A stretch of DNA of 64,000 bases from Pseudomonadota bacterium. Its GTDB lineage: Bacteria; Pseudomonadota; Gammaproteobacteria; Xanthomonadales; SZUA-38. Below the pieces are notes generated by a model. That model saw only the letters and a list, made by a program, of their open reading frames with translations, searched no databases and was not told the DNA's origin. Numbering within the stretch: the first letter of the stretch is position 1; each line of letters begins with the position of its first letter. Positions 6,919-63,410 of this stretch are shown here, piece after piece. The stretch is from the NCBI GenBank assembly GCA_039033415.1, contig JBCCCR010000010.1:124001-188000 (forward strand). Direction: 5' to 3'. The position numbers were made by a program, and so were the translations under genes.

Positions 6919-7773
6919 ATGGGTGATTTCAGCATGAAGCCGCTTCTGGCGTTGGCCATAGGCGCGCTGACCACAACCACAACAATTGCTCAAGACGCTT
7001 TTGAGCCGGACGACACGCCGGTGCAGGCAACGTTTCTTGAGGGTTTCGATTTCCTGACCAACGGGCCTGTTGTGATCGAACAGGAGCATACTTTCAGCGA
7101 TGCCTCCGACGTTGACTTCACCACGTTTGCAACCACCTTCAACTACCCCACATCTTGGTCTGGCAGCGACCCCAATACTCGGCTCTATCTGCAGGTTTGC
7201 GACGGCGCATGTGATGATGTGGCCGACCTGTTCATCAGCCTGGAACTCTTCGATTTTGATCTGATCGCTGATCCTGCGAACGCGACGCCCGTTTTTGCCA
7301 TCAACCCGTGTCCCGGCGGCATCAGCGATGAACAGGAGCGGGAGCTGCCCAATTTCCCCCAGGACGAAACGCTGTTCGTGCGAGTCACCGAGTGCAGCGG
7401 TAACGGTGCCGGTCGACCTTATCGGCTGTTGCTCACCCGAGACGCGGTCGGCATTGATCTCCACAAAATCTCGGGCACCGTTGGGTTCCTGGATGGCTCA
7501 TCCCAGCTTCAGCCCGCACCAGCGTTCGTCGTCATCACGTCGAATTACAACGACTTTACGTTTGCCAACCCCGTGACCGGAGCCTATGCACTTGGCGTAC
7601 TTTCTCGAGACTTTCAGTCCGGTGCCGACATCGCCGACCTCGAACTGACCGCTCAGGTTTTTGGGAACGACCAGGACTTCGACATTCAAACCCAGGCTGT
7701 CACGGGCCTCACGGCCGCCGACGAACAAATCGTGAATTTCCAGCTCAATATATTCCTTAACGGATTTGAGTAG
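6919..7773 (+). CDS. Secreted protein of unknown function with F-x-N-G-F-E C-terminal tail
   Basis: The 284-residue protein has a short N-terminal extension and a signal peptide (MKPLLALAIGALTTTTTIAQ); ATG 6919 and ATG 6934 are both possible starts. The mature region starts DAFEPDDTP, resembling the pre-peptidase C-terminal type of extracellular beta domain, in which E-x-D-D-x-x-x-A motifs are common. It has two Cys pairs, and a second beta-sandwich-like domain from about residue 185. It ends in IFLNGFE, a tail shared with two other large secreted proteins in this window, so it is probably handled by the same export or anchoring route. No enzymatic motif is visible. It is convergent with the CpcT-like gene. 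Confidence 0.75.
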   Translation: MGDFSMKPLLALAIGALTTTTTIAQDAFEPDDTPVQATFLEGFDFLTNGPVVIEQEHTFSDASDVDFTTFATTFNYPTSWSGSDPNTRLYLQVCDGACDDVADLFISLELFDFDLIADPANATPVFAINPCPGGISDEQERELPNFPQDETLFVRVTECSGNGAGRPYRLLLTRDAVGIDLHKISGTVGFLDGSSQLQPAPAFVVITSNYNDFTFANPVTGAYALGVLSRDFQSGADIADLELTAQVFGNDQDFDIQTQAVTGLTAADEQIVNFQLNIFLNGFE

Positions 7774-19581: not shown

Positions 19582-20958
19582 ATGCGTCATTCGCTAGCTG
19601 CGCTACTACTCTGCCTGGTGTTTTCGGTACCGACACCGTTTGCTATCGCGGGCGACGCAGAAGATCCCGACAAAATCTACATCGCCAGTCAGCTCGATTG
19701 GGTCCTCGGCGACGTCGATGAGCAGCGTCTCGACATGCTGCGGGAAAAGTCCGAAAGCCTGCGGCCGGACGAAGCGAATCGCTTGGCTTACCTGGACGCG
19801 CTCGTCGAGGAAGGTGGCGCGGCTCTGCTGCTGGACCAGCCTCGCTATGGACTCGATCGGCTGGAGACAGCAGAACGGATCGCCAATCGCTTTCTTGAGC
19901 GGGACGATCTCAAGCGCCTGCGACTGCAGCTCCTCCTATCTATGGCCTACGAGCGGAACCGCAAGCTGAAGCTCGCCGCCGAATCGCTGTCTCGCGCTCA
20001 GCAGGTTGTCGCGCTGCGTGAAGGAGCCGGAAGCGCGTCGCAGCTCAAGCTCATCTATCGCCGGGCGAGGCTGTTAACGGCAAACGGCTCGCTGTGGCTC
20101 GCCGGCAAGCAGTACCGGTCAGCGCTGCGGCTGACGCGCAAAACCTTTGGCGACGCCAGCCCCGAAACAGTAGAAGCCACCATCGCGCTCGGTACCTTTC
20201 TCCGCACGACCGGTGAATACAAAAAGTCGTTGACGGCATTCCGCAGGGCGATCAAGCGCATGCGCAACGCGGATAAGCAGTATCACCCGCTGGCCGTCCC
20301 GCTTCTGATGGAGCGGGCGGAGACCGCCTTAACTGGCCCGCTCGCCGAGCACGCGCTCGACCAGATGGCTCTGGCAATTCAGATCATGGATGAGAACGAG
20401 GCGTCGTTTTCCACAGAAGAACGGATCGTGGCAGCCTACCGGTACGGTGAAGTGCTGATGCTGCAACATCTGGAGGGTCGGGCCATGGTTCAGTTTAAGA
20501 AGGCCTGGGCACTGGCCGAAGCCGACAAACACGCTGATTGGCTTGCGCGCCTTGCCAAGCCAGAGCTGATCAGCAACCCGCTGTTCCGCGCAGGAAACCC
20601 GGGCGAGGCCGGCTTTTCGCTCAGTTACAACCTTTCCGCTGATGGCCGACCGAAACAGGTCGAAGTAACCGCAGCGGCAAACGACCACATTGCCGTCACC
20701 GAGTTCGCCAAGGACCTGCTGCGAAGCGCGAGAGTGCGTCCGCCCGTGATCGCGGGAGAGGGGCATGCCGTTGATGACCAGCAGCTCATCATGGTGTTTC
20801 AGCCTTATGACGGTCGAAACCATCACCAGCCGTTGTTCCACCTGCAGCGCAACCGGCCCCGGGCAACCTTGCGTGACAACTTCCGAAATCGACCGGCTTA
20901 TCGCCCGGACTTTCGGCCGCCGGCGCCAAGACCTGACGGCCGCAAGGTGCGTGTCTAG
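19582..20958 (+). CDS. Exported helical-repeat protein with TonB-C-like end
   Basis: The start is ATG 19582, preceded by GGGAG and opening a signal peptide (MRHSLAALLLCLVFSVPTPF); GTG 19540 upstream gives no signal. The 458-residue protein is mostly TPR-like alpha-helical pairs (residues about 30-320), for example the A-L-R-L-T-R-K-T-F-G-D-A-S-P-E-T-V repeat typical of tetratricopeptides. Residues about 350-420 look like a TonB C-terminal domain: F-S-L-S-Y-N-L-S-A-D-G-R-P-K-Q-V-E-V, then V-R-P-P-V-I-A-G. The tail is basic and Pro/Arg-rich. It is probably periplasmic, and an assembly or scaffold role is inferred from the TPRs. Confidence 0.8.
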   Translation: MRHSLAALLLCLVFSVPTPFAIAGDAEDPDKIYIASQLDWVLGDVDEQRLDMLREKSESLRPDEANRLAYLDALVEEGGAALLLDQPRYGLDRLETAERIANRFLERDDLKRLRLQLLLSMAYERNRKLKLAAESLSRAQQVVALREGAGSASQLKLIYRRARLLTANGSLWLAGKQYRSALRLTRKTFGDASPETVEATIALGTFLRTTGEYKKSLTAFRRAIKRMRNADKQYHPLAVPLLMERAETALTGPLAEHALDQMALAIQIMDENEASFSTEERIVAAYRYGEVLMLQHLEGRAMVQFKKAWALAEADKHADWLARLAKPELISNPLFRAGNPGEAGFSLSYNLSADGRPKQVEVTAAANDHIAVTEFAKDLLRSARVRPPVIAGEGHAVDDQQLIMVFQPYDGRNHHQPLFHLQRNRPRATLRDNFRNRPAYRPDFRPPAPRPDGRKVRV

Positions 20959-59178: not shown

Positions 59179-59674
59179 AAGGGAGAGTTAGTTTCCTTAG
59201 TCTTGAATAATGATTCAGCGACGAAAGCCAGGGGCCAGGACCAAGTGTCAGGTCGGACAGCCAATCCTTTGCGTTTCCTATACTAATACCCAAAGATCGG
59301 AGTGTATCTCGGCAGCAGACAACGCCTTAGGTTTGCTTGTCACGGCCTCGCGTTGCTGTCCTGTGTGAAGGTGGATGCACGCCACATGATCCGAGTCCAA
59401 GCGCCGCTAGCAGCAATAACTCTGGGCGCTCTCAATGGGACATGACATCTAGTCCCCACTCCTAGATTCTTGTCTGCTGCAGCTGAGATTCGACCTGGCA
59501 GTTGGTCCCGTCCCTAGATTTCTGTAGCACCCTTCTCGGACCTGACGTCACGCAGGGCCGAAGCCAATACCCCTATGACGCGCCAAGTGGAGCAAAACTC
59601 TTTTCGCCGACAAGTGACTTGATATTGCGCTATCTGCTAGGTTGATGTTTTCTACCTTGGGATATGCCGATCCA
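59179..59674. other. Intergenic region bounded by inverted repeat ends
   Basis: No gene is seen. GGGGCCAGGACCAAGTGTC at 59231-59249 continues to AGGTCGGAC. An inverted counterpart, CGACCTGGCAGTTGGTCCCG, begins at 59491 and runs to 59514. These are the same ends as in the 122-bp element, here about 284 bp apart, with unrelated sequence between. Confidence 0.5.
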
Positions 59675-61549
59675 ATGAAAAGGCTAACGTTGGTGACTTC
59701 GATAGCTGCGGCGGTTGCCGGCCATTCGTCGCTCGCACAGGAGTCCATCAATCTGGCGGACCTTGATGGCAGCAACGGCTTTGTGTTGACCGGCATTGAT
59801 GCTGATGATCAATCCGGAGTGGTCAGCAATGCCGGTGACGTCAATGGTGATGGCATCGACGACGTGATCATCAGTGCACCGGCGGCCGACCCTGTGGTCG
59901 CTAGCGAGGGGGAGACCTATGTCGTGTTTGGCAACAGCGTCGGATTTCCTGCCAGTTTCGACCTCGCCAATCTCGATGGTAGTAACGGATTTGTTTTGAA
60001 CGGCATCGATATCGGTGATGCTTCCGGGGTCTCGGTCAGCGCCGCAGGTGACGTCAATGCCGATGGTATTGACGATATTATCATCAGCGCACTTGCGGCC
60101 GATCCCGGAAGCAATGCCGAGGGCGAATCCTATGTAGTGTTTGGTAGCAACACCGGGTTTTCCGCAAGTTTCGACTTGTCCAGCCTTAATGGCAGCAACG
60201 GCTTTGTGCTGAACGGTATTGACCCCACCGACCGCTCTGGTCGCTTTGTGGACGGCGCGGGCGACGTCAATGGTGACGGTATCGACGATGTCATCATTGG
60301 CGCTTATCTCGCCGACCCGGGCACTGATGACGAAGGAGAGTCCTATGTGGTTTTCGGCACTGATCTTGGGTTTTCTGCCAGCATCGATCTGGCCAACCTC
60401 GATGGCAGCAACGGTTTCGTAGTAAACGGCATCAATGCCAACGACTATTCGGGACAACTGGTTGGTAGGGCTGGCGATGTCAACGGCGACGGGATCGACG
60501 ATGTCATCATCGGTGCACCAATCGCGGACCCTGGGGGCAGCGCCTCGGGAGCGACGTATGTGGTTTTTGGCAGTGACGCGGGATTTGTGGCGAGCATCGA
60601 CCTGGCCAGCCTGGATGGCAGCAACGGCTTTGCGCTGAACGGCCTCGCGCCCGGGGATATATCCGGAAGGTCGGCGAGCGGAGCAGGTGATGTTAATGGT
60701 GACGGCATTGACGATGTCATCATCGGCGCCTCTTTCGCCGACCCTGATATTGATGGTGAAGGTCAAACCTATGTGGTCTTCGGCAGCAACAGCGGGTTTT
60801 CTGCCAGTTTTGATCTGGCCAGCCTTGATGGCAGCAACGGCTTCGTGCTGAACGGGATTGATGCCAATGACTTCTCTGGCCGCTTTGTAAGCGGTGCCGG
60901 CGACTTCAATGGCGATGGTATCGACGATATCCTTATCGGAGCCGAAGGCGCTGATCCCTCGGGCGATGACTCAGGCGAAACCTACGTGGTGTTTGGCAGC
61001 CGCGCGGGGTTTTCTGCCAGTTTCGATCTGGCCACCCTCGATGGTACCAACGGCTTAGCCCTGAACGGCGTTGATCCCGACGATAACTCTGGATTCACCG
61101 TAAGTGGCGCCGGGGATGTGAATGGCGATGGTATCGATGACATTATCATTGGCGCCGACGGCGCCGATGTCGACATCGGTGGTGAGGGCGAATCCTATTT
61201 GGTGTTCGGCAATGCCACACCACTTGCCTTGGGCCACACCATCGTTTTGTTCGAAGAGAGCGAAGATGAGAGCAACCCTCTCGACTATCGCCTGGATCTC
61301 ACTTTCGCCCCCAACTACGTCGATGTTGATCCATTCGCCGGTGCAGCAGTGACGGCAGATGCTAGCTCTGGCAGCGAGGGGCAGTGGCAGTATTCCACCG
61401 ACGGGGTTGATTGGTTCCCAATGCCGACATTGCTGAGCAATACAGCAGCTGTGGTGCTGACAGGCGAGTCTTCGTTGCGATTTGTTCCGGCTGCTAATTT
61501 TTTCGGCACCCCGGGAGCGCTGACCGTGCGCCTTTGGGACGGACGTTAG
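59675..61549 (+). CDS. FG-GAP beta-propeller secreted protein, 5' part before an in-frame TAG
   Basis: ATG 59675 opens a signal peptide (MKRLTLVTSIAAAVAGHSSL); an ATG at 59645 is an alternative. The mature part has seven repeats of about 70 residues, each with L-D-G-S-N-G-F, then D-V-N-G-D-G-I-D-D, then Y-V-V-F-G-S. They fit a seven-bladed FG-GAP propeller with Ca-binding D-x-N-x-D-G-x-x-D loops. A region with C-terminal F-G-T-P-G-A-L-T-V-R-L-W-D-G-R follows, and the frame then stops at TAG 61547-61549. The same frame stays open after the stop and continues the same domain type, so this is probably one gene of about 888 codons carrying a nonsense mutation. Such proteins act at the cell surface in adhesion or binding. 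Confidence 0.85.
   Translation: MKRLTLVTSIAAAVAGHSSLAQESINLADLDGSNGFVLTGIDADDQSGVVSNAGDVNGDGIDDVIISAPAADPVVASEGETYVVFGNSVGFPASFDLANLDGSNGFVLNGIDIGDASGVSVSAAGDVNADGIDDIIISALAADPGSNAEGESYVVFGSNTGFSASFDLSSLNGSNGFVLNGIDPTDRSGRFVDGAGDVNGDGIDDVIIGAYLADPGTDDEGESYVVFGTDLGFSASIDLANLDGSNGFVVNGINANDYSGQLVGRAGDVNGDGIDDVIIGAPIADPGGSASGATYVVFGSDAGFVASIDLASLDGSNGFALNGLAPGDISGRSASGAGDVNGDGIDDVIIGASFADPDIDGEGQTYVVFGSNSGFSASFDLASLDGSNGFVLNGIDANDFSGRFVSGAGDFNGDGIDDILIGAEGADPSGDDSGETYVVFGSRAGFSASFDLATLDGTNGLALNGVDPDDNSGFTVSGAGDVNGDGIDDIIIGADGADVDIGGEGESYLVFGNATPLALGHTIVLFEESEDESNPLDYRLDLTFAPNYVDVDPFAGAAVTADASSGSEGQWQYSTDGVDWFPMPTLLSNTAAVVLTGESSLRFVPAANFFGTPGALTVRLWDGR
59748..61210 (+). repeat. Seven tandem coding repeats of about 210 bp (FG-GAP blades)
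   Basis: Units start near 59750, 59960, 60172, 60387, 60598, 60813 and 61026. Each encodes one propeller blade with a conserved GATGGCAGCAACGG-like segment. High DNA similarity between units makes recombination and misassembly here plausible. Confidence 0.85.
61547..61549 (+). other. In-frame TAG interrupting the FG-GAP gene
   Basis: The stop lies between G-R and R-D-P-G-E-G. The reading frame is otherwise open from 59642 to 62341, with no frameshift. A single base change would restore it. Confidence 0.8.
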
Positions 61550-61573
61550 CGCGACCCGGGAGAGGGAGTAGAT

Positions 61574-62341
61574 GTGAGCGGCGCGATTGGCGGCCTAGGC
61601 GGATTCGCCAACGACGACAACCTGCTGGTCGTGACTTTGGACATAGCGCCCGTGAATGATGCGCCCAACTTTACGGCGCTAGATCCGCCACCGGTGAACG
61701 AAGACCCAGGCGGCGTCACGGTGACGGGGTGGTCAAACTTCGACCCCGGTCCTGGCGAGTCGGGCCAGATTGCGCTGCTTTATCAGGTAGAGAACATATC
61801 CAATCCGGGACTGTTTTCCGTACTCCCGACCATTGGTACCTTGGGCAATCTGGTTTATGACACCAAACAGGACGTCAGCGGCGTCAGTACCTTTGATGTG
61901 CGGGTGGTTGATAACGGCGGAATCGCCGACGGCGGCGTAGATGTCTCGGGCTTTCAGACTTTTACCGTCACGGTGAACCCGGTCAACGATCCACCGGTGT
62001 TTGCGGCAGATGACCCACCACCGGTGATCGCTGACGACGGCCCTCAAACGGTTAGCCAATGGGCTAGCTTTGATGCCGGCGCGGCCGACGAGTCAGATCA
62101 GCAGGTAACACTTTCGGTGACGAATATCGCTAATCCAGTGCTGTTTGCTGTACCGCCGAGCATCGACGCCAACGGAAACCTCACTTACACTCCGGCCCCC
62201 GGCACCGCAGGCAGCTCGATCTTCACTGTCGTGGCCAGCGACGACGGCGGAACCGCCAACGGTGGCTCAGACACCTCTTTAGCGCAGGAGTTTGTGATCA
62301 ACGTGCGCAGTGAGTTGCTATTTGCCAACGGCTTCGAGTGA
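61574..62341 (+). pseudogene. 3' part of the FG-GAP secreted protein gene, with F-A-N-G-F-E tail
   Basis: This in-frame continuation of the gene interrupted at 61547 encodes about 256 residues. It shows two cadherin/Big-like units, each entered by V-N-D-A-P or V-N-D-P-P (T-L-D-I-A-P-V-N-D-A-P, V-T-V-N-P-V-N-D-P-P), and ends S-E-L-L-F-A-N-G-F-E. GTG 61574 has GAGGGAG upstream, but the product would have no signal peptide, so independent translation would leave an exported-type domain in the cytoplasm. It is better read as the tail of the upstream gene. If the stop is genuine, the truncated protein loses the shared C-terminal tail. Confidence 0.75.
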
Positions 62342-62630
62342 GAATCCGTAAGCAATAGGTAGCGGCGGCGCGCAAAGTGGCTGCGGGTGAAATCCCCACC
62401 ATCGACGACGGAGGCCGAAGGCCAATAGAACCACTTCGAGCCAGATCTACTTGGGTTCTGCCCACCGAAGGTGCCGCAGTCTGGAAGGAGCGTTGCGGTC
62501 AGTCTTCCGACAGGCGTGATTCCCTTTGACCGCAAGTGATGCCATCCTGGATCCCGCTGATACGCGCACTGTTTCGCTTGTCGCGCACAAAACACTCTCA
62601 CCTGCCTTCAAAAAGGGACGGAACGGCGGA

Positions 62631-63410
62631 ATGAATATCAAAATCCTTGGGCTCGCGGCCATTTTAGTTGGGAATTTCGCGCCGACAGCCGCTGACGCAG
62701 TCAACCCGGTTGCCTTACAAAACCTCACAACGGCCGCAGTGATCAGTCAGGTTCGACCCGCCGACAGACGAGATGACAGACGCCAGCGGCGAACCGAGGA
62801 TCGCCGGCGCGAGGACCGCCGCGAAGATCGGCGAGACGACTGGCGAGAGGATCGCCAAGAGGATCGCCGGGACGACCGCCGCGACGACAGGTGGGAGCGC
62901 TACTGGCGCTATCGAATTGGGGTTCGCCTGGCAACGCTACCTCTGCGGCACAGCCGCGTGGTCATCGGGTCCACCGTCTATTACTACGCGGACGGCGTCT
63001 ACCTGGTTCAGCGCGGCGGAGGCTATGTTGTGGTTGGAGCGCCCATCGGCGCTCGCATCGTGGGGCTTCCCTATGGTTTTCGAAGTTTCTGGATCGGTCC
63101 GAGGCGCTACTTTTACGTCAACTCAACCTACTATGTTTACGCCCCTGGCAGTCGCGACTATGTGGTGGTTGCCGCGCCTTCAGGCGCTGAGCAGGCCGTG
63201 GCCAACATAGCACCAGAACCCGTTGTGTACCCGGCAGGTGGTCAATCGGTCGAGCAGATCGATCAGGACCGTTATGAGTGCCACCGCTGGGCGATGGGCG
63301 AATCGGATTTTGACCCCACACGTTCGCAGCAGGACGCCGGGGCGGATCAGGACCGATACAACCGGGCCTTGTCGGCGTGCCTGACGGGCCGCGGCTACAC
63401 CGTTGGATGA
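62631..63410 (+). CDS. DUF6515-like exported protein with Arg/Asp-rich segment
   Basis: The start is ATG 62631, with GGGACGGAACGG upstream; it opens a signal peptide (MNIKILGLAAILVGNFAPTA). The frame to 62526 lacks support. The 259-residue protein has a strongly charged segment (about residues 45-90) of repeated R-x-D-R-R-x-D-R-R units. A Tyr-rich beta region follows (Y-Y-Y-A-D-G-V-Y, G-Y-V-V-V, Y-Y-V-Y-A-P, D-Y-V-V-V). The C-terminus has Y-E-C-H-R-W-A and F-D-P, ending R-A-L-S-A-C-L-T-G-R-G-Y, typical of this envelope family with two conserved Cys. No function is established for the family. Confidence 0.82.
   Translation: MNIKILGLAAILVGNFAPTAADAVNPVALQNLTTAAVISQVRPADRRDDRRQRRTEDRRREDRREDRRDDWREDRQEDRRDDRRDDRWERYWRYRIGVRLATLPLRHSRVVIGSTVYYYADGVYLVQRGGGYVVVGAPIGARIVGLPYGFRSFWIGPRRYFYVNSTYYVYAPGSRDYVVVAAPSGAEQAVANIAPEPVVYPAGGQSVEQIDQDRYECHRWAMGESDFDPTRSQQDAGADQDRYNRALSACLTGRGYTVG

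Follow-up and report, generated by a model that had tools for sequence, protein, structure and literature searches.

A single in-frame TAG interrupts a gene for an exported FG-GAP surface protein in a Lysobacterales bacterium, and this stop probably arose by a recent nonsense mutation; the gene is one of seven full-length paralogues. The TAG is present in the assembly sequence at 61547-61549 on the forward strand of the window, by which we mean the whole stretch of 64,000 nucleotides analyzed (G000:C10:124001-188000); the genome to which the window belongs is a 6.4-Mb draft in 62 contigs. A preliminary description of this DNA had offered a recent nonsense mutation, phase-like switching, readthrough or a sequencing error as the origin of the stop. 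The nonsense mutation is the best supported of these readings: relatives carry a sense codon at the site, the rest of the gene is undecayed, and six other full-length paralogues in the genome are free of internal stops.

The open frame on either side of the stop

The stop closes an ORF listed as 59642..61549 from a TTG start, with an ATG at 59675. When the TAG was read as X, the same frame ran on to a TGA at 62339-62341 without any other stop, confirming that the frame is open on either side of the TAG and that the domain sequence is continuous across it, as had been described. The protein encoded past the TAG resembled the continuation found in relatives. None of 2,000 base shuffles of this stretch of 263 codons stayed open. 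The window contains eight stop-to-stop frames of at least 300 codons that end in TAG (not all of them genes); seven reach the next stop in 2-52 codons, whereas the 59642..61549 frame needs 263. In the translation, both V-N-D-x-P motifs and the C-terminal tail are positioned after the TAG, which also agrees with the preliminary description.

Features of the interrupted gene (positions are those of the window)
Feature	Position	Strand	Basis
Whole FG-GAP surface-protein gene, including the in-frame stop	59675..62341	+	ATG start proposed, TTG at 59642 possible; full-length homologues
Part before the stop, 624 residues	59675..61546	+	PF01839, E 2.3e-43, seven stretches
In-frame TAG	61547..61549	+	Trp in 14/19 aligned homologues, stop in 0/19
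Ig/cadherin-like part downstream of the stop, 263 open codons with two V-N-D-x-P motifs	61550..62338	+	PF17963 (Big_9), E 1.4e-8
C-terminal tail LLFANGFE, abutting the TGA at 62339	62315..62338	+	

The 624-residue part has a signal-peptide-like start (judged from the sequence), followed by seven FG-GAP stretches and most of one domain that comes after the FG-GAP region. The TAG falls inside this last domain and not at a domain boundary. In the part after the stop, one Big_9 stretch scored over the cut-off, and Cadherin_4 and Cadherin_5 scored under theirs. A structure model of the interrupted domain, built from a two-row alignment, had a mean pLDDT of 44.3 and was too poor to show an effect of the truncation.

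If the TAG acts as a stop, translation would end after residue 624, and the product would miss the rest of the interrupted domain, the Ig-like part and the C-terminal tail. Such a product would probably be unstable or mis-sorted, a loss that could be tolerated because other copies of the gene remain. It is very unlikely that the tail-less 624-residue product is instead produced and functional, for instance in a released form. All seven FG-GAP stretches do precede the stop, and the same-genus genome G001 has a shorter homologue of 675 residues (L063). However, L063 keeps a tail, LLFADGFE, and in all 19 homologous ORFs that we aligned, the last 20 or so residues contain a tail-like sequence, which the truncated product would lack; moreover, the window gene is cut within a domain, and its part after the stop is undecayed. 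We also rejected a restart at the GTG at 61574, considered by sequence only, as its product would be without a signal peptide. We found no promoter or terminator at the stop; a scan of 59180-62700 gave one of each, below the shuffle means of 1.9 and 3.1, respectively.

Relatives, conservation and the origin of the stop

Among the matches listed, the genome has six other full-length homologues of the window gene, which are 49-66% identical to it and have no internal stops. A query with the C-terminal part had 16 matches in the same genome, and only the window gene had the stop. The window gene was aligned with 19 homologous ORFs, taken from 20 stretches at the top of the homologue list: eight from the same genome, six from the same-genus genome G001 and five from G003, a genome of the same family. 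The codon at the site specified Trp in 14 of these homologues, Leu in two, and Tyr, Phe and Arg in one each, the alignment at the site being less sure for the homologues with Leu, Tyr, Phe or Arg; none had a stop. All ten of the best-scoring homologues had Trp at this position.

These relatives are paralogues or distant homologues, at best 66% identical to the window gene, and include no same-place orthologs. The upstream flanks of the gene matched two separate contigs of the same-genus genome G001, and the downstream flanks had no match in that genome; thus, no same-place ortholog could be compared. The preliminary description had named a sense codon in close relatives as evidence against its observation. 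The relatives do have sense codons, but at no more than 66% identity they are paralogues or more distant homologues. Their sense codons support a mutation in the window gene and are no refutation of the stop seen in this genome.

Nine close homologues continue past the site; their identity to the window gene is 45-64% upstream of the stop and 56-70% downstream of it. Of the columns that are invariant in these nine, the window gene differs in 4 of the 86 downstream of the stop and in 6 of the 133 upstream. When each of the nine intact homologues was left out in turn and treated in the same way, each differed in 0-11 columns downstream of the site and in 1-21 upstream. The sequence past the stop is therefore as conserved as in intact copies, with no decay. 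From the number of new stops alone, neutral substitutions per site since the stop arose would be fewer than about 0.18-0.20 (95% bound), a bound that falls to about 0.03 when indels are added at an assumed 10% of substitutions. The lack of decay means that the stop is young, that it is absent from the living cell, or that the downstream part is still used; it is equally compatible with a young mutation, a base error and a functional gene.

A single-base sequencing or assembly error, with the gene intact in the cell, is accordingly one reading to be weighed, and we regard it as unlikely. The undecayed sequence after the stop and the draft state of the assembly speak for it. The window gene also resembles the false pseudogenes, created by internal stops introduced during assembly, that are documented in PMC11017572, in that it has a single internal stop, comes from a draft assembly and is otherwise intact. 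Against an error, the one stop among the 16 matches of the C-terminal query indicates that this assembly, unlike a riddled one, is not full of stops. The FG-GAP tandem arrays end at 61211 and so do not include the site, and no paralogue is similar enough for cross-assembly. The best other DNA match of 61300-61800 in the genome was 71% identical over 125 bases, and the longest exact words near the site that the window gene shares with six paralogues were 9-14 bases long, which makes cross-assembly between paralogues unlikely.

Phase-like switching, as suggested in the preliminary description, and gene conversion were both rejected. There were no direct or inverted repeats of at least 10 bases in 61300-61800, and there was no near-identical donor copy, the words shared with paralogues being only 9-14 bases long.

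A recent nonsense mutation would place the window gene with bacterial point-nonsense pseudogenes in multi-copy families, in which one copy is broken, other full-length copies have no stop and the frame is undecayed; no feature that we tested sets it apart from them. The stop itself is ordinary, reflecting a broken copy in a redundant family of surface proteins or a base error.

The meaning of TAG and other stops in the family

In this genome, TAG serves as an ordinary stop: it terminates 6 of the 19 other homologous ORFs and 27 of 78 tail-bearing ORFs of the same genome (described below). The genome encodes release factor RF1 (543 bits, cut-off 423). A CUA anticodon occurred in 0 of 41 typed tRNA hits (out of 42 Rfam hits, one of them untyped; ARAGORN called genes at 41), in a tRNA set that is incomplete, with tRNA-Ile absent. 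A code change or a suppressor tRNA is therefore unlikely, since TAG works as a stop and the 41 typed hits of this incomplete set include no CUA tRNA. The RNA at 61540-61660 folded no better than its shuffles (z +1.26, with 178 of 200 shuffles at least as good), and a structured readthrough element in this interval was rejected on that basis.

The untyped hit, L119:860-971 (G000:C4:160359-160470), is a tRNA-like sequence that scored 35 bits with Rfam. It carries an insert of about 40 bases in the anticodon region, and ARAGORN called no tRNA there.

These results bear on programmed readthrough, in which a few ribosomes would pass the TAG so that one gene yields both a short form and a tailed form. 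The downstream frame is intact and conserved, as readthrough would require, and an FADGFE tail also follows an in-frame TAG in a second FG-GAP gene, L028, from a genome in a different family of the order. However, the TAG of L028 is at a different site, inside an FG-GAP repeat, and none of the 19 aligned homologues of the window gene has a stop. Together with the presence of RF1, the lack of a CUA anticodon among the 41 typed tRNA hits and the unremarkable RNA fold, this leaves readthrough, another of the origins first proposed, highly improbable.

At least eight of the family matches listed contained stops. In six of them, the stops were the genes' own ends: L036 and five others, four of which end in the tail and one of which (L212) ends without it. 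Premature stops among the matches listed were found in the window gene and in L028 (G026:C72). In L028, the TAG is at 2812-2814 (about 71513-71515 of the contig), in the last FG-GAP repeat, and the frame continues to the FADGFE. Because the two premature sites differ, scattered inactivation fits better than a conserved device.

This count of stops is blind to frameshifts. Adjacent FG-GAP matches in different frames were seen in two other genomes, at G077:C1 about 1250606-1250618 and at G078:C61 about 7024-7062, where mutation or assembly may have shifted the reading frame.

The C-terminal tail

The tail that the truncated product would lose, LLFANGFE, fits the signature [LVI]-F-x-[DN]-[GS]-F-E. 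We searched the genome at the DNA level for F-x-[DN]-[GS]-F-E and obtained 93 matches, compared with one for a control in which the pattern was read backward. Under a rule by which a match counts as C-terminal if it lies within 21 codons of a stop and is preceded by at least 60 open codons, 78 of the 93 matches passed, 73 of them within 8 codons of the stop. The other 15 failed: ten had no stop in the fetched stretch, four reached a stop only 31-437 codons on, and one was preceded by 49 open codons. With the tail removed, the 78 tail-bearing sequences, several of them partial, formed 36 clusters at a BLAST E value of 1e-5. The preliminary description had called the tail shared, which was right and understated.

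The residue before the motif was L, V or I in 76 of the 78 sequences. None of the 78 had a membrane-like segment (a 19-residue window above KD 1.6 in the last 45 residues), and 73 had no or one K/R in the last 12 residues. For 40 of the 78, we scanned tail regions of 70 residues against NCBIfam and Pfam and found at most 3 of 40 regions matching any one model, with no model name pointing to a general model of the tail, although short motifs can escape such scans. The tail regions that matched other anchor families were assigned to choice-of-anchor Q (3 of 40), rhombotarget A (2 of 40, weakly) and ExeM/NucH (1 of 40). In choice-of-anchor families, the sorting tail differs from one organism to another.

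Across 299 Lysobacterales genomes, tail counts varied by family, being near zero in some and high in others; genome G035 had 20 matches, compared with 3 in its control. No enrichment was seen in 92 genomes from other orders of the class, where the top count was 7, with a control count that was also 7. This distribution has the pattern of a lineage-specific C-terminal tag, and the tail looks like a putative sorting tag. Within family f2, all genomes had 0-5 tail matches except G090 (51) and G236 (77); this patchiness suggests that a partner system was gained or lost.

The tail resembles the signal of the GlyGly-CTERM/rhombosortase system in being a short C-terminal signature on dozens of otherwise unrelated proteins of one genome (PMC3237569). 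GlyGly-CTERM consists of a motif followed by a transmembrane helix and a basic cluster. By contrast, the tail differs from the GlyGly-CTERM, PEP-CTERM and LPXTG types in having no hydrophobic segment in any of the 78 sequences and few basic residues at the end. Our search of open-licence papers found no literature on this tail or on a stop of this kind.

We tentatively propose, at somewhat less than even confidence, that the tail is an undescribed sorting signal of part of the Lysobacterales that has no membrane-anchor segment, and that the window gene represents a natural loss of the tail from one of its client proteins. The tail is of more interest than the stop: it is a six-residue C-terminal signature found on dozens of proteins per genome and, among the genomes surveyed, enriched only in part of one order, and it would point to an export or anchoring route.

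Two other arrangements of tail motifs were seen in the same genome. On contig C13, two convergent ORFs (L165 and L166) have ends with the tail motif within about 60 bases of each other, at G000:C13:20601-20618 on the forward strand and 20640-20657 on the reverse strand. At G000:C3:154741, a full-length FG-GAP paralogue (L058) ends in the tail, and 369 bases downstream, at 155110, a short frame of about 73 codons ends in another tail motif; this frame is perhaps a small protein or a gene remnant.
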